From: Spartobacteria bacterium
GTDB taxonomy: Bacteria > Verrucomicrobiota > Verrucomicrobiia > Chthoniobacterales > UBA6821
Length of the DNA: 47,271 nucleotides
Assembly (NCBI GenBank): GCA_947487385.1
Contig: CANKWU010000015.1
Coordinates: 1 to 47,271, forward strand
Direction of reading: 5' to 3'
The position numbers and the translations under genes were made by a program. The notes beneath the pieces are model-generated. The model did no database searches and was not told where the DNA came from. It worked only from the letters and a program-made list of their open reading frames with translations. Shown piece after piece: positions 2,781-47,271 of this stretch (positions are counted from its first letter, which is position 1; each line of letters opens with the position of its first letter).

Positions 2781-4085
2781 TTACTGATTACCACCATCTA
2801 CTGTCCTGCCAACCTTCATGTCCGTAAGCTTGATGTTCGGAGCAATGATGGAGTTGGTCGAGTCGAAGGACTTGATCAAGTTAATGAAGTTATTAGCAAA
2901 AGCCTTGGCGTTAACCGAAGCTAATGTGTTGTCGTAACTCACGAACTCATATCCCCACCAAGGATAGGCGCCCGTGGTGATGTTGGTGTAGCCGGCATCA
3001 AGGGTTGTGAAGTTGGTATTGCTGTAGCAACGCCCTTCCACGCCATTGAACTTAAGCGGGACCAATCCAGCGGCCACGCGGGCTGCGGTCATGTCAGCAA
3101 CTGAGACATAGCCAACCAAGTAGTTGCCCCCAGAACCCCTGCTGGTTCCAGTTACAGTCACATTTGTGGCGATGGTATTGGTCATGTATCCGGCAACTGT
3201 GCCGCCCGAGGACTCACCACCCTCTCCGAGGGACGTGGAGATACCATTAATGGTTGTCGCGGGATGCTTCACAAGTGCTGTTACGACAGCGTTCGTAACA
3301 GTAGGCTTCCATTGAGTTAACTGATCGGCGATTCCTCCCTTGAGGGCAGCTAAAGCAATCACTCTTGTTCCAGAGTCAATGTTACGTCCGGTAGCGAATA
3401 CCTTGACTGTGGTTTTGTTGGTGTTACCAGAGATCTTTTCTCCAGTGATGAATCCAGCCGTCAAGATTTGGTACATGTTGTTAAGGGTCATGTTGCGATC
3501 AGGGAAGTCGGTAGCATACCCCTTACTTGCGATAGGGCTATAAGGAACAATCCCTACTGGCACCAGGGTGAGAGCGGTGTAGGTGGCGCCGTCAGATGCC
3601 TTCTTACCACCCTGGAAACGGGATGATGCCTGGAAGCTGTCCGAGCATCCGATGATTCCCTTCTGGAGGGATGTCAGAGGGCCGGCGCTCATCGTGGCAG
3701 TATCAGGCTGCGCGACACCAGTCGTGCGTGTGGTAATGTTATTGGATGCCAACTTGGCGAGGTCATAGAAAGGCACGCGCTTGTTGTTGGTGCCGGAAGC
3801 AACCGTCTGCATGCCACCCTCTGAACCTGTCCAAGTCACTGCAAGATCAACAATGTTGCCGTTAGTAAGCGCACAATTGGTGAAATACAATGCGATAGCG
3901 CTAGCGTCGGTTGCAGAGGAGCCAGACGATGCCAAGAGGTTATTGCTGTAGAGCGAGTAGAGTGTGTTGTTCGCAGCGCTACGGAAGGCCGTGGCACCGG
4001 TGATGTAGACGACTTCCTGCGCGGAGGCGGAAGCGATCGAGAGAGCTGCTGCTGCAGCCATCAGGATGGATTTGGTGTGTTTCAT
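2781..4085 (-). CDS. Secreted PstS-like periplasmic binding-type protein
   Basis: 434 residues. The N-terminus is a clear Sec signal peptide (MKHTKSILMAAAAALSIASASA). The mature protein opens with VVYITGATAFRSAANNTLY, which resembles the start of phosphate-binding PstS-type proteins (a beta strand, then a Gly-Ser/Thr loop). DSGTRVIALAAL near the middle recalls the PstS ligand loop containing SGTR. The rest is Thr/Asn-rich and poorly conserved to the eye. No pstC, pstA or pstB homologue follows, so transport is not supported by context; a surface or periplasmic binding protein of the large PVC-specific expansion is more likely. The binding-protein assignment is tentative. The gene ends at a strong hairpin and lies upstream of the PEP-CTERM array on the same strand. 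Confidence 0.6.
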   Translation of the reverse strand: MKHTKSILMAAAAALSIASASAQEVVYITGATAFRSAANNTLYSLYSNNLLASSGSSATDASAIALYFTNCALTNGNIVDLAVTWTGSEGGMQTVASGTNNKRVPFYDLAKLASNNITTRTTGVAQPDTATMSAGPLTSLQKGIIGCSDSFQASSRFQGGKKASDGATYTALTLVPVGIVPYSPIASKGYATDFPDRNMTLNNMYQILTAGFITGEKISGNTNKTTVKVFATGRNIDSGTRVIALAALKGGIADQLTQWKPTVTNAVVTALVKHPATTINGISTSLGEGGESSGGTVAGYMTNTIATNVTVTGTSRGSGGNYLVGYVSVADMTAARVAAGLVPLKFNGVEGRCYSNTNFTTLDAGYTNITTGAYPWWGYEFVSYDNTLASVNAKAFANNFINLIKSFDSTNSIIAPNIKLTDMKVGRTVDGGNQ

Positions 4086-4385
4086 GTTTGTTTGTGTGGT
4101 TTTTGTTTTTACTGACTTTTCTTACTGCGATATGACGTTTTTCAATTCCTTGCTTATTCTTCCAATAAGCTTTGGAGGCTGATTTTATGAGGTTCTAGCG
4201 GTGGTTTGGTTGTGAGTTGGTTTTCCCCAACAGTCGAGAGAGTGCCCGAACCCTCCAAAGTCGTCACCCTCTCTATTGTAACAAGTTCGTAACATAGCGC
4301 CCCCCCCCTACAATGGGCGGTCGTGAAATGTAAAAGGTGGGAATGTTGGGTGGTGAGCGTCGAGGGGTCGAGGGTCGAGGGTCGA

Positions 4386-4468
4386 GAACCAAGGCTCTGG
4401 GAAGAGCTGCGGAAGACTACTGTAAGTAGCCCCGGAGGGGTGGCACCGCTTGTCGGGCGGCAAGTGCC
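4386..4468 (+). repeat. Four-hairpin structured repeat, copy S1
   Basis: Reading on the plus strand, GAACCAAG is followed by four stems: GCTC-TGGGAA-GAGC, CTAC-TGTAA-GTAG, CCCC-GGA-GGGG, and a bulged terminal hairpin GGCAC-CG-CTTG ... CAAG-TGCC. The element is 83 nt, exactly the same length as copies S2 and S3. It is bordered on both sides by GTCGAG-type direct repeats. There is no coding content. Presumed to act as RNA or as a structured DNA repeat; function unknown. Confidence 0.75.
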
Positions 4469-4545
4469 ATCAATCGAGCGTCGAGGGCATTCATTGGCCA
4501 CAAGATGCACAAAAGGCACAGAAGAGACGGGGGATGCTAAAGGGA

Positions 4546-8536: not shown

Positions 8537-8836
8537 GATGGAAAATCTCCATCGGAATGGATATGATGTCAACTTGCTTCCTTGGAAGATTTGGGGAGAG
8601 ATCGATGGTTAAAAGCGAACGGTGTGAACGTGGGAAGGTACCGAAGGGAATACCTAGGGTGCGGGAGATGGAAGCTTGAAGATAGAAGTCGGGCGGAGGG
8701 CTGAGGGCTAAAGGGGAAGTCGAAGGACGATGATCGGATTAACGAAAGGCTGGCCTTCCTTCTGAAACGCTTAAACTCGAGGAAGCATCCCTGATCACGG
8801 ATTGACACAATTTCTGAATCAGATGAAATCTGTCTT
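8537..8836. other. Intergenic stretch with degenerate repeats
   Basis: Exactly 300 bases without a gene. AAAGCGAACGGTGTGAACGTG near 8612 repeats text from around 7495. AAGTCGAAGGACGA followed by GAAAGGCTG and CTGAAACGCT (about 8718-8775) looks like a decayed third copy of the 112-nt direct repeat. The promoter of the plus-strand gene at 8837 should lie here but was not identified. Confidence 0.5.
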
Positions 8837-22239: not shown

Positions 22240-22264
22240 CTCCTATCTCCTATCTCCTATCTCC
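22240..22264 (+). repeat. Short CTCCTAT heptamer array
   Basis: Three and a half copies of CTCCTAT. The inverse heptamer text (GGAGATGGGATATGGGAGATA) occurs 100 bases earlier, near 22128-22150. It is related to the larger arrays at 30190-30266 and 47107-47162. It lies in the 222-base gap after the small gene at 21820. Confidence 0.7.
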
Positions 22265-22281
22265 TGCGCCCCTCCCGGGGC

Positions 22282-30189: not shown

Positions 30190-30266
30190 CTCCTATCTCC
30201 TATCTCCTATCTCCTATCTCCTATCTCCTATCTCCTATCTCCTATCTCCTATCTCCTATCTCCTAT
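30190..30266 (+). repeat. Eleven perfect CTCCTAT heptamers
   Basis: 77 bases made of eleven uninterrupted CTCCTAT units. The ubiD stop codon (minus strand TAG, 30263-30265) lies inside the last unit, so the array abuts the 3' end of that gene. Related arrays are at 22240-22264 and 47107-47162. Prone to slippage. Confidence 0.9.
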
Positions 30267-31732
30267 CCCAGAAATCCATCAGCCCACGCCTTAGTAGCAG
30301 GATCCATCTTCACTAACTCAGGCCAGCCGCGAGTGTAGCCCTCTCCGGGGATTTTCTTCGTGGCGTCGAAGCCCATGTGCCCCCCCATGTTCGGCACGGT
30401 GGAAGCATGGTCGAGGCTGTCCAGTGGATTCTTGGTAAGGATGCTGTCGCGTTGAGGGTCGGTGTTGGCCATCCATCGGAAAAGAACCTCGGAGGTGTTC
30501 TGCACGTCGCAGTCATGATCCACCACGACGATGTACTTCGCGAACATCATCTGCCCCATACCCCAGAGACCATGCATCACCTTGAAAGCCTGCCATGGGT
30601 ACTGCTTCTTGATCGAGACAAAGACAAGGTTGTGAAAGGTCCCCTCAGCCGGGAGCGCCATGTCGACAATCTCGGGAAAGTTCATCTTGAAAATCGGCAG
30701 GAAGATCCTGACGCTCGCCTCCCCCATGTAAAAATCCTCCATGGGAGGAATACCGACGATGGTGCAGGGGTAGATGGCCTCCTTACGATGGGTGATCGCC
30801 GTCACATGGAAGACAGGATAGTCATCCACTGGTGTGTAAAATCCGGTGTGATCGCCGAAGGGACCTTCGGGTCGCATCTCGCCGGGCTGGACATATCCCT
30901 CGATCACAAAATCGCTCTCGGCGGGTACCTCCAGCGGCTGGGTAACGCACTTGACAAGGTCGACCGACTTCTTTCTGGCGAATCCGGCGAAGAGGATCTC
31001 GTCGATGCCGTCGGGCAGTGGTGCCGTGGCGGCCAGCGTGAAGACAGGATCGCCTCCGAGGCAGATGGCTACGGGCATCTTCTCGCCGCGCTCATAATAA
31101 CGTTTTCCGTGACGTGCACCGACTTTGTGCACTTGCCAGTGCATGCCGGTGGTCTGACCATCGTAGATTTGGATCCGGTACATTCCGACATTCCGCTCAT
31201 CCGTGTCGGGATCTTTTGTATAAACAGTTGGAAGGGTGATGAACCTTCCTCCATCGTGTGGCCAACACTTCAGGATCGGGAGATGATCGAGAGAGAGGAG
31301 CTCCCCATGATTTTCCTCTCCCAAGCGATGAACAACCTCCTGACAGGGAGCGCTCTTGACGGAGCGGGGACGGGCATGGATCAGATCGATTCCGTTTCGT
31401 AGAAGCTTCAGTGCATCTGCAAAGCTCTTCGGCGGCTTCGCCTTCATCAGGAACTCGAGTTGACCGGCAAGCTCATCGACAGAATCGAGTCCGAGAGCCA
31501 TCGCCATGCGGCGCTTGGATCCCAAGGCATTGATGGCCACGGGGAAGGCGGAGACCTTGCCGTTGATCGTCGGCTTCTCGAAAAGTAGAGCCTTCCCTCC
31601 GCCCGGGGACTTCATCTCTCGATCAGCGAGCTCCGTGATCTGAAGTTCAGTGGCCACAGGCTCAGTGATACGCCGGAGTTCCCCGGCTTCTTCAAGGGCT
31701 TTTAGGAACGCAGCATAGGATGGATAAGCCAT
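30263..31732 (-). CDS. ubiD: UbiD family decarboxylase
   Basis: 489 residues, close to E. coli UbiD (497). The conserved core includes GAKRRMAMALG-like text (LGSKRRMAMALGLDSVDELA), GMYRIQIYDGQTTGMHWQVH, EGYVQPGEMRPEGPFGDHTG (the Arg-Glu-Glu catalytic region) and KQYPWQAFKVMHGLWGMGQM. UbiD enzymes use prenylated FMN to decarboxylate aromatic acids, for example in ubiquinone or menaquinone synthesis. No ubiX (prenyltransferase) is in the window, so the pathway is not settled. Its stop codon overlaps a heptamer microsatellite. Confidence 0.9.
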   Translation of the reverse strand: MAYPSYAAFLKALEEAGELRRITEPVATELQITELADREMKSPGGGKALLFEKPTINGKVSAFPVAINALGSKRRMAMALGLDSVDELAGQLEFLMKAKPPKSFADALKLLRNGIDLIHARPRSVKSAPCQEVVHRLGEENHGELLSLDHLPILKCWPHDGGRFITLPTVYTKDPDTDERNVGMYRIQIYDGQTTGMHWQVHKVGARHGKRYYERGEKMPVAICLGGDPVFTLAATAPLPDGIDEILFAGFARKKSVDLVKCVTQPLEVPAESDFVIEGYVQPGEMRPEGPFGDHTGFYTPVDDYPVFHVTAITHRKEAIYPCTIVGIPPMEDFYMGEASVRIFLPIFKMNFPEIVDMALPAEGTFHNLVFVSIKKQYPWQAFKVMHGLWGMGQMMFAKYIVVVDHDCDVQNTSEVLFRWMANTDPQRDSILTKNPLDSLDHASTVPNMGGHMGFDATKKIPGEGYTRGWPELVKMDPATKAWADGFLG

Positions 31733-35471: not shown

Positions 35472-35624
35472 TCGCCGAGCAGTTACTCGAGCTTGATCGA
35501 CTGTTTTTTCAGATTTTGCAGATCAGAAAAGATACCTGAGCACCTAGCAATTCGGTTCTTCCTAACAGCCTAAAGGCTTTTTATCTGCCGGTCGTTTGAC
35601 TCGTTCGCTCCCGCTCAGTTGAAC

Positions 35625-35710
35625 GGCACTTTGCTCCAGCAAAGCGGTGCCGCCCTCACGGGCTTGCCTTAGAGGCAATTTCTCCGCATCTCTTCCCAGA
35701 GAATTGGTTC
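35625..35710 (-). repeat. Four-hairpin structured repeat, copy S4
   Basis: 86 nt. Minus-strand stems: TCTC-TGGGAA-GAGA, TTGCCT-CTA-AGGCAA, GCCC-GTGA-GGGC, and GGCAC-CG-CTTTG ... CAAAG-TGCC. The framework GAACCAA, GCGGAGA and GGCACCG is shared with S1-S3 while all stem sequences differ compatibly. An extra hairpin CCC-GAA-GGG precedes it (35711-35722). It fills most of the 370-base gap 35472-35841, whose right part is TCGAG-type direct repeats. Confidence 0.75.
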
Positions 35711-35841
35711 GCCCTTCGGGTCCCACCTCTGCGGGATCTATCCGCGCTCCATCCGTGAACCTTAGTTCGACATCTCGACTCTCGACTCTCGACTTCAGAC
35801 CTAGGACACTCAGTGTCTAGGATGATGTGCTACATTTAGGT

Positions 35842-36135: not shown

Positions 36136-36304
36136 ACCCGGTTTATTTCTGGTGATGACCCTGTTCCCTCTTCCTCTTTTCCTTCAGATCTTTATTCTTA
36201 TATTATGCTCACTGCTCGCCCCCTGTGCCGTTTGTGGCCACCTTCGGCACCTTCAAACTTTCCCACCTTCAAACCTTTTACTTTTAACCATCCCCCACAT
36301 TGAC

Positions 36305-36387
36305 GGCACTTGCCGCCCGACAAGCGGTGCCACCCCTCCGGAGCTACTGACAGTAGTCTTCCACGGCTCTTCTTAGAGCCTTGGTTC
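36305..36387 (-). repeat. Four-hairpin structured repeat, copy S2
   Basis: 83 nt. Minus-strand stems: GCTC-TAAGAA-GAGC, CTAC-TGTCA-GTAG, CTCC-GGA-GGGG (one T-G type wobble) and the bulged GGCAC ... TGCC hairpin. It is the copy closest to S1. The surrounding gap 36136-36461 contains nothing else recognisable. Confidence 0.75.
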
Positions 36388-45515: not shown

Positions 45516-46637
45516 TCAATGATCCGCACTACCCTCTTTGAGGGCTGAGATTTGAGTCGCTATGTCCGAGAAGATCGGAGCGGCTACTAATCCCCCAAAG
45601 TTTTTCTCATGAGGAAGGTCGGCTTCGTCCACGACCACGACCACCACGTACCGGGGGTGATCCACAGGAAAGAAGCCCGCAAACATGGTCCAATATTGAT
45701 CTGGGAGGTATCCGCCTTTGTGAGAGATCGCTTGGACTGTTCCCGTCTTTCCAGCCACTGTCACCCCTGCAACGCGGGCCAAGGGGGCAGTACCATCTGG
45801 GGAGACGGTTTTTTGTAGAGCATTTTTTACCCTGTTGGCTGTGCTCTGGGAGCAGACTCTGCGCACTACCTTGGGCTTCTCAGCGCCAATCAGCGGACGC
45901 ATGAGATGTCCTCCATTGGCAAGGGCACAATAGGCCATGGTGAGCTGGATGGGTGTGACGGCAACACTCTGACCAAAACCCATGCGCGCCTTGGTCAGCG
46001 CACTCCACTTGGAGGGAGGAATCACGACGCCTCTGCACTCGAATGAAAGCGAGATCCCTGTATTCTCCCCGAATCCATATTTGCGGACGAACTGGTAGTA
46101 ATCTTTGTCCTTCAGCATGAGGGCCATCTTGGAGGCTCCGATGTTGCTGCTCTTGGCTAGGACCTCTTCAAGGGTGGCATCCCCCACTGGGGAGTAATCC
46201 TTGATAATCTTTCCTCCGTAATAGAATCGTCCGTTCTCGCAGTAGATCTTGGTCTTTGGGGTGATGACGCGCTTCTCAAGAGCGGCGACAGCCACGACCG
46301 GCGTGAAGGTGCTTCCGGGCTCAAAGATTTGTGAGGAGGTCCAGAGATTGGGATCTGGTTTTCCTGTCCGTGGATTCTTTATCGCCTTAGGGGGCCAACA
46401 AGGCCAATCACTTATCGCAAGGATCTTCCCTGTCTTCGGCTCTGCAACGACTATTGAGATACCTTTGGGGTGAAGGGTTTTTCTGGCATCGGCCAACGCC
46501 TTATCCGTGATCCTCTGGATAGGCTGATTGTCCGGAAATGCCCTGGAAGCAGTCTGGGAAATATGATTGGCACAGCCAGTCAGAGCGACCGTGAGGAGAA
46601 GGGTGTTACAGAGAAGTGGGATGATGCTGGTTTTCAT
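45516..46637 (-). CDS. Lipoprotein transpeptidase-domain protein lacking the SxxK lysine
   Basis: 373 residues. It has a lipobox LTGC (C22) and only the penicillin-binding transpeptidase domain of FtsI/SpoVD type: FEPGSTFTPVVAVAALEKRV, LAKSSNIGASKMALML (SxN) and AGKTGTVQ (KTG). The catalytic motif S-x-x-K reads S109-T-F-T112: lysine is replaced by threonine (ACG, one base from AAG). SxN and KTG remain. Family knowledge says this lysine is needed for acylation, so the protein is probably inactive as a transpeptidase and may have a structural or scaffold role, unless a sequencing error is involved. The N-terminal dimerisation domain is also missing. Confidence 0.85.
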   Translation of the reverse strand: MKTSIIPLLCNTLLLTVALTGCANHISQTASRAFPDNQPIQRITDKALADARKTLHPKGISIVVAEPKTGKILAISDWPCWPPKAIKNPRTGKPDPNLWTSSQIFEPGSTFTPVVAVAALEKRVITPKTKIYCENGRFYYGGKIIKDYSPVGDATLEEVLAKSSNIGASKMALMLKDKDYYQFVRKYGFGENTGISLSFECRGVVIPPSKWSALTKARMGFGQSVAVTPIQLTMAYCALANGGHLMRPLIGAEKPKVVRRVCSQSTANRVKNALQKTVSPDGTAPLARVAGVTVAGKTGTVQAISHKGGYLPDQYWTMFAGFFPVDHPRYVVVVVVDEADLPHEKNFGGLVAAPIFSDIATQISALKEGSADH

Positions 46638-46693
46638 GATTAGAGGCGCGGATATGGGAGATTGGACATTTGAGATGGGGGATGGGTTAGGTT

Positions 46694-46888: not shown

Positions 46889-46965
46889 TCAAAAAATCCT
46901 AGCACGTCTCCTAGGTCACCAAGTGTCCTAGGCTAGAAAAGGCTGAAGTTGAGGGTCGAGATGTC

Positions 46966-47048
46966 GAACCAAGCTGGTTGGAACCAGCGCGGGAGACTGC
47001 CGAAGGCAGCCCCAACGGGGCGGCACCGCTTTGCGGGCGCAAAGTGCC
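46966..47048 (+). repeat. Four-hairpin structured repeat, copy S3
   Basis: 83 nt. Plus-strand stems: CTGG-TTGGAA-CCAG, CTGCC-GAA-GGCAG, CCCC-AAC-GGGG and GGCAC-CG-CTTTG ... CAAAG-TGCC. Only the framework (GAACCAAG, GGCACCG, TGCCGTCAA) matches S1/S2 by sequence; three stems are replaced by different but complementary bases. It is bordered by TCGAG motifs. Confidence 0.75.
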
Positions 47049-47106
47049 GTCAACGTCGAGGGCTCAGGAAGACTGAAGGGTTTTAAGCGCCAAAGGCGCG
47101 GAGATG

Positions 47107-47162
47107 GAAGATAGAAGATAGAAGATAGAAGATAGAAGATAGAAGATAGAAGATAGGAGATA
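47107..47162 (+). repeat. GAAGATA heptamer array
   Basis: Seven GAAGATA units followed by GGAGATA and similar text. GGAGATA is the complement of the TATCTCC phase of the array at 30190, so the arrays belong to one heptamer family found in both orientations. Confidence 0.85.
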
Positions 47163-47228
47163 GGAGATGGGGGCTGTCGGAGACCTTCCCCAGTTGACGG
47201 GTGCGGGATGGAGGAGTACTGGTGAAGT

Positions 47229-47271
47229 ATGCCTGCGACAATGACCATGGAGCTACCAGCCGATGTGCTGG
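47229..47271 (+). CDS. Possible 5' end of a small gene, cut by the window edge
   Basis: From the ATG at 47229 the frame reads MPATMTMELPADVL and runs off the end. The short (Thr-Met-Glu-Leu-Pro) opening resembles small antitoxins such as UPF0175 proteins, but 14 residues cannot establish this. Confidence 0.25.
   Translation, partial: MPATMTMELPADVL

Follow-up and report, generated by a model that had tools for sequence, protein, structure and literature searches.

A family of ~85-letter folding DNA repeats, apparently undescribed, in freshwater bacteria

We analysed a 47,271-nucleotide stretch of a Spartobacteria contig (the window) and found that four copies of a short sequence in it belong to a real, well-supported structured repeat family of unusual anatomy. 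This family of ~85-letter folding DNA repeats in freshwater bacteria is apparently undescribed, and no description of it was found in the literature searched, most subscription papers lying outside that search. The repeat forms separate units that occur in many copies, vary in presence between genomes and keep their ends and structure; at its best site there is no target duplication. It occurs in one genus, in diverged form in other genera of the order (Chthoniobacterales, going by record titles), and on tailed-phage contigs. Because copies are present or absent at orthologous spacers, we think it somewhat probable that the unit is a non-autonomous mobile DNA element, similar to IS200/IS605-derived PATE or to REP/REPIN, and folded as single-stranded DNA.

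Anatomy of the element and its copies in the window

Each unit consists of four hairpins in a row: hairpin A with a two-pair extension CC/GG, hairpins B and C, and hairpin D with a three-base bulge. With borders taken from spacers that lack the element, the unit runs from CCAAG to TCAA over ~85 nt (85-89 nt in the window), and we call the strand that reads in this direction the element strand. An earlier sequence-only reading had placed four copies in the window, all of which we confirmed at their coordinates and strands; measured from GAACCAA to TGCC, three of them span 83 nt and the other 86 nt, as it had stated. Its stems A-D are as described, except that stem C of copy 3 is CTCC/GGGG with one T-G pair, and that stem D, although present, is longer than claimed (GGCA-CCG bulge-CTTTGC/GCAAAG-TGCC in copy 4). 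The linker that it gave as GCGGAGA actually reads GCGGAAGA, GCGGAGAA, GTGGAAGA or GCGGGAGA. Missing from its list was a truncated fifth copy, which immediately precedes copy 2 and shares its orientation (Table 1). Copies 1 and 3 are closely alike in sequence, so that the four copies by themselves are thin evidence, and it is the wider family that settles the question.

Table 1. Element copies, heptanucleotide repeats and an unoccupied spacer in the window
Feature	Position	Strand	Remarks
Copy 1	4389..4473	+	left border after GAGAA, right border ATCAA
Copy 2	35619..35707	-	89 nt, CCAAT...TTCAA; 88.0 bits, model seed
Copy 3	36300..36384	-	85 nt, CCAAG...GTCAA; 111.7 bits, model seed
Copy 4	46969..47053	+	85 nt, CCAAG...GTCAA; 111.0 bits, model seed
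Truncated fifth copy	35711..35765	-	stems A-C, without stem D; by inspection only, no model match
Heptanucleotide repeat	4355..4386	+	GAGGGTC; copy 1 is set in the repeat
Heptanucleotide repeat	35767..35794	-	beside copy 2 and its truncated neighbour
Heptanucleotide repeat	47102..47168	+	AGATAGA, 9.6 times; downstream of copy 4
Further heptanucleotide tandem repeat	22240-22265		
Further heptanucleotide tandem repeat	30190-30267		
Spacer without the element that the matching G012 spacer has	8600..8772	.	spacer otherwise rearranged

Genes of PIN, AbiEii and HipA type lie near element copies in the window. The small gene beside copy 4 is found together with the element within a multi-copy array of the close relative G012, which matches the window at 93% over 1014 bases. 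Homology with G012 and with the genome G009 breaks at 46545-46645, inside the start of a penicillin-binding protein (PBP) gene, and beyond this break the small gene and copy 4 sit in an array elsewhere in G012, marking an island border. In addition, the last 149 bases of the window (47123-47271) recur without a mismatch at the end of C12, another contig of the assembly. The window therefore probably runs on into C12, where a further element lies in the same orientation ~1.2 kb past the window end. A palindromic motif close to CCTAGGACACTCAGTGTC was seen at 35798-35825 and 46909-46932, and at loci L183 and L184 before the PBP gene. By inspection, the genes that follow it are unrelated to each other, and it stands immediately 5' of a putative -10 box; it might be a promoter or operator motif.

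Distribution of the family

A covariance model was built from the four window copies, which match it by construction, and the search of the own and related genomes that the sequence-only reading had proposed returned many further matches. In the own assembly (G000; 2.05 Mb, 48 contigs, 94.5% complete), scoring of the best 150 of 721 first-look candidates gave at least 25 places at E up to 0.005 and at least 34 at E up to 5. With the own genome included, 28 of 58 genomes have a match at E up to 0.1, namely 15 of 16 in the genus, 5 of 6 in the rest of the family and 8 of 36 in the rest of the order, some of these last eight resting on single weak matches. With up to 70 candidates scored in each genome, the numbers per genome are all lower bounds; they reach at least 70 in G006 and at least 52 in G003. 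The matches in other genera, found by the same model, keep the architecture and differ in sequence.

An exact pattern of the right half was found in 47 stretches of GTDB contigs, 44 of which are titled Spartobacteria or Chthoniobacterales, and in six IMG/VR contigs. Of the remaining GTDB stretches, two come from one Akkermansiaceae MAG and one is titled Proteobacteria, a title that is probably wrong since its matches coincide with those of G002, a member of the genus. The Akkermansiaceae copies sit at contig ends, and mis-binning is likely there, as is mis-titling of the Proteobacteria entry (the loci of the two MAGs are L114, L115 and L109). Plasmid and phage reference collections gave no match with copy 4 alone as query at E up to 1e-5.

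Comparison with Rfam 15 at gathering score returned only tRNAs over the whole window. Up to E 5, positions 46900-47100 gave one chance-level overlap (Flavivirus_SLIV, E 3.1), and six further loci gave no match at any element up to E 1. The view that the element matches no described RNA family is supported by these searches, as is the view that it is no described REP family, the element not being a GTAG/CGTC-tagged single-hairpin REP; nor was a match to a known IS end found. With the strong covariation described below, neither outcome that the sequence-only reading had named as refuting it came about.

Some loci show larger arrangements. In the own genome, ~350 bp around the element are shared at ~95% identity between L190 (~3280-3650) and L193, with extra GGGA-loop hairpins on both sides, which points to a larger repeat unit. 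At L052 and L203 (G027 C19, another family of the order), the hairpins seem by inspection to extend in both directions into longer tandem hairpin arrays.

Covariation of the stems

The covariation set comprises 134 model matches in 122 distinct rows, giving 3044 cells. Paired cells make up 95.0% compared to 74.7% (sd 0.5) in shuffles, a percentage favoured by an alignment that was fitted to the structure and whose related rows are not independent; with the partners slid by 1-3 columns, paired cells reach at most 46.5%. Changes on both sides occur in 26 of the 27 stem pairs, amounting to 554 cells vs 138.9 (sd 11.0) in shuffles, beside only 39 one-sided cells, and none of 500 shuffles reached any of the five measures. 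The compensatory changes noticed in four copies therefore extend to a strong signal in many more. Folding of single copies is unremarkable, with z of -1.04, -1.98, -2.03 and -1.17 on the element strand.

Pair types and loops were counted on the best 98 of the 134 rows, 85 after removal of identical cores. An extra pair closes stem D, as C-G in 69 and as T-A in 10 of the 85. Loops A and D read GGGA in 56 and 52 of these copies and fit GNRA in 58 and 53 on the element strand, compared to none on the other. This loop sequence, found on that strand alone, favours the strand that the sequence-only reading had given. Its statement that selection acts on structure and not on primary sequence is not supported, as sequence conservation is found at either end and in the linkers; moreover, the pairing pattern fits DNA better than RNA, and presence and absence of copies point to a mobile repeat.

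Element borders and orthologous spacers

The borders of the element are (T)GAA/CCAAG...TCAA/, where a slash marks the border. Border counts were taken on the 120 of 128 genus contexts (168 contexts in all) that have enough flank. CCAA is at its expected place in 85 of the 120 and lacking in 35; the 85 copies that have it are preceded by GAA in 68 cases and by CAA in nine, against a GAA background of 2.4%. At the right end, TCAA is present in 101 of the 120 and lacking in 19, and CGTCAA is kept in one of 34 related-genus copies. Head-to-tail joints such as CCGTCAA/CCAAG, in which TCAA of one copy is the left flank of the next, were counted in two of the 168 contexts by a strict pattern, and further ones were visible.

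Copies of the element are discrete units that are present or absent at orthologous spacers, a pattern by which mobility is supported. For copy 1, the matching spacer of G012 lacks the element, with homology picking up again at 4474, immediately past ATCAA. The best site is G000 C3:1746, where G000 reads GCTGAA/CCAAG...GTCAA/TACTGTTAGGAA and the unoccupied G012 allele reads GCTGAA-GACTGTTAGG-CTGTTAGGAA. The target TGAA is thus present in G012, which lacks the copy, and G000, which has it, shows no flank duplication; the ten extra bases of G012 (GACTGTTAGG) mean that even this site is not fully clean. The same copy is also missing in G009, with a wider gap. The copies at C16:35674 and C1:203258 are missing in G009, where the spacers have diverged. 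Conversely, G012 has two copies, on C24 and C18, that G000, or else G011 and G007, lack; the latter two genomes have other copies a few hundred bases from these sites. One G012 copy is missing from a window spacer (Table 1). Elsewhere among the unoccupied sites, divergence affects the left side, with its heptad repeats, or the entire spacer, so that deletion or wider rearrangement is possible there. One copy is shared by G000 and G012, one by G009 and G012 and two by G000 and G009; one orthologous copy is decaying.

Flank pieces from 13 element loci of G000 were compared with G012 and G009. Both flanks were recovered for five loci, with the element absent at four (L186, L188, L187:1746 and L024) and present at one (L025 in G009, 34.5 bits); the absence at L188 is not counted as a clear case because the spacer differs throughout. 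For L022, one flank was recovered in G009 together with the element (66.4 bits), and a weak match lies nearby in G012 (29.9 bits). The remaining loci were one-sided or not found. Integron cassettes were considered and rejected: in other flank comparisons, the matches listed were mostly short stretches, which we read as neighbouring element copies and not as shuffled cassettes.

Heptanucleotide repeats in the flanks

Heptanucleotide arrays are prominent in the window, where they include the two highest-scoring tandem arrays, and around the family across the genus. Over the 100 bases on the 5' side of the element (162 contexts), lags 7 and 14 give match rates of 0.325 and 0.315, compared to 0.251-0.291 for all remaining lags between 2 and 15. 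The periodicity is weaker in the 3' flank (0.298 at lag 7), and is absent 200-400 bases away and in the six phage contexts. A weak GA recurs every seventh base in the element flanks. The heptanucleotide repeats of the window resemble the STRRs of cyanobacteria.

Gene context, arrays and phage copies

Gene context was read from a codon-usage gene caller beside the listed open reading frames, so that counts of orientation are approximate. The element overlaps a called gene in one of 110 contexts (best 119 of 134 rows, repeats removed). In hosts, the gene adjoining the CCAAG end is antisense in 49 cases and sense in 30 (p 0.04); in spacers between co-directional genes alone, the ratio is 24:13 (p 0.10). 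Ten of 102 host copies lie between convergent genes.

Eight rows come from phage contigs, representing four sites of one phage group and one orthologous pair of the other group, which also has a weak seventh copy. These tailed-phage contigs carry portal and terminase genes, and peptidase S49 in one group. All phage copies examined are antisense to late genes. In five of seven a start codon lies ~20 nt downstream, and inspection shows a terminator-like hairpin ahead of some copies. Pfam comparison of 20 called phage proteins found no transposase or recombinase, ten of the 20 having no family match at all. The copies in phage late regions suggest a possible route of spread.

Two arrays, on G006 C53 and G012 C67, carry model matches in one orientation between short operons that include toxin-antitoxin and defence genes; they lie among nucleotidyltransferase, Fic, methylase, RloB-like and PIN-like genes. 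At other loci the element orientations are mixed. Many contig starts of G012 carry one gene piece, an assembly-breaking repeat that we take to be like the end of an IS3-type transposase.

Pairing as DNA or as RNA

Among 2251 stem cells of the element there are 34 G-T and 24 A-C cells, compared to 16 G-T and one A-C among 324 cells of a tRNA yardstick, which comprises those 27 of 32 tRNAs from fetched loci with at least 10 of 12 standard pairs, a filter that trims the A-C counts of the tRNAs. The split between G-T and A-C differs between element and tRNA with a Fisher p of 0.007 (0.086 without one ragged column), and the rate of G-T with a p of 0.0002. These modest counts suggest that pairing matters as DNA and that the element strand is the folded one. 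The family does not look like an ordinary RNA gene, and these data do not establish an RNA nature. Strong covariation, usually taken as proof of a structured RNA, is here found in an apparent mobile repeat; it may be maintained in the single-stranded DNA form, which calls for caution in filing such repeats as RNA families.

Search for a cognate transposase

The Y1 transposase family (PF01797) was not found in G000, nor in seven others of 11 genomes searched, and its matches in the remaining three genomes form five loci, none of which has a full element within ~1.5 kb. A RAYT/REP system was accordingly rejected as a candidate, none of these loci being flanked by a full element. The Y1-bearing genus members G003 and G006 have the two highest match counts of the nine compared, whereas four of the six tested genus members with at least 25 matches have no Y1 gene. 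In a search of the same 11 genomes for the general family PF00589, only two proteins were found in G000. As for an autonomous version, no lone half-elements enclosing a gene were recognised among 30 of 31 right and 24 left 'lone' ends, which proved to be pattern-missed, truncated or decayed copies.

One Y1 gene, on G006 C33 (L076 1375-2530), lies between inverted ends of the GGGGTCAGTGT type, and next to it, following GTCAAA, stands a left end of the element in truncated form. This arrangement and the high counts in the two Y1-bearing genus members are suggestive only, and too little to lean on.

Alternative explanations and the preferred reading

The main rival, which we hold to be rather unlikely, is a regulatory role as RNA, above all in phages: the element would be a small structured RNA or act in cis, as a leader or between cistrons in phage late operons and host operons, and would have spread only secondarily. 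It accords with the antisense position of all phage sites examined to late genes, with the ~20-nt distance from start codons in five of seven, with the similar antisense lean of host copies and with the GNRA-type loops A and D. However, the GNRA loops lie on the strand that is antisense to the neighbouring genes, and the G-T and A-C counts are unlike those of tRNAs. In addition, host copies also lie between convergent genes, on the sense side and in tandem, and are absent from orthologous spacers, while the lean in co-directional host spacers alone is not significant. A REP/BIME-type repeat moved by a RAYT (Y1) transposase would explain an intergenic, multi-copy, hairpin-forming sequence with no coding capacity, as well as the high counts in G003 and G006 and the Y1 gene of G006 beside a truncated left end. 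We consider it distinctly unlikely, for the element lacks the form of such a repeat, one hairpin of 20-40 bp on a GTAG/GTGG foot, no full element stands beside any Y1 gene found, and most well-populated members tested (four of six) lack Y1.

A decaying intergenic repeat, with paired changes that arise from hairpin-templated correction and with neither function nor present mobility, is very unlikely. Its account of the excess of both-side over one-sided changes, and of the one decaying orthologous copy, is set against presence and absence between close relatives and against copies in phages. Least probable by our reckoning is the recombination site of an integron-like cassette array: the one-way arrays of G006 C53 and G012 C67 between short toxin-antitoxin and defence operons resemble such an array, but the best unoccupied spacer lacks the element alone and not gene plus element, G000 has just the two PF00589 proteins, orientations are mixed elsewhere, and no attC-type end boxes were seen by inspection.

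On the reading that we prefer, a non-autonomous mobile element, one DNA strand of the repeat would fold and be moved by an enzyme acting in trans. This enzyme, a nuclease or transposase, would recognise the end hairpins, cut after TGAA/TCAA and paste the strand without duplicating the target. A more specific and rather doubtful version is that the four-hairpin unit, found in freshwater Verrucomicrobiota and in phages, may be moved by a non-Y1 enzyme, its pairs being kept because the folded strand is the transposition substrate; phages may have come to use copies at the boundaries of their late transcription units. The proposed borders, target rule and occupied and unoccupied sites make both mobility and the enzyme testable.

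Comparison with known systems

BOX and ERIC are modular intergenic repeats of ~100 nt that fold strongly and for which mobilisation in trans is assumed. They are similar to the element in size, modularity and folding, but have different hosts, and the element is also found in phages. The STRRs of cyanobacteria are degenerate 7-nt tandem repeats, whereas the heptads here form the setting that flanks the element and not the element proper. Compared to IS608-type ends, the distance from border to hairpin looks shorter here.

PATEs are palindrome-associated transposable elements, related to IS605, of Haloquadratum, and their conserved terminal oligonucleotide is read as target, outside the element (PMC3119063). 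The element is like a PATE in being short and non-coding, with hairpins near both ends, a conserved terminal oligonucleotide, presence and absence between strains and terminal-only deletion forms (PMC3119063). It is also too short to code. It differs in its four tightly packed hairpins of fixed order, in its occurrence in phages, and in that no cognate IS605-type transposase was found in its host genome; nor were ends shared with a host Y1 transposon found in the 11 genomes searched. The search for a cognate transposase turned up none next to a full element, and for this reason the family is placed in neither PATE nor REP.

The TnpA-REP system (PMC6006769) provides the other comparison, together with CGTC REPs, which likewise are not known to have a dedicated transposase (PMC3733652). 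Similar to REP/BIME/REPIN (PMC3733652), the element is intergenic, present in many copies and has a bulged hairpin; many of the genus copies have CGTC at the foot of hairpin D. Unlike REPs with a RAYT, it does not flank the Y1 genes found as full copies, and it is 85 nt long with four hairpins, compared to REPs of 20-40 bp with one hairpin and a GTAG/GTGG tag (PMC3733652).
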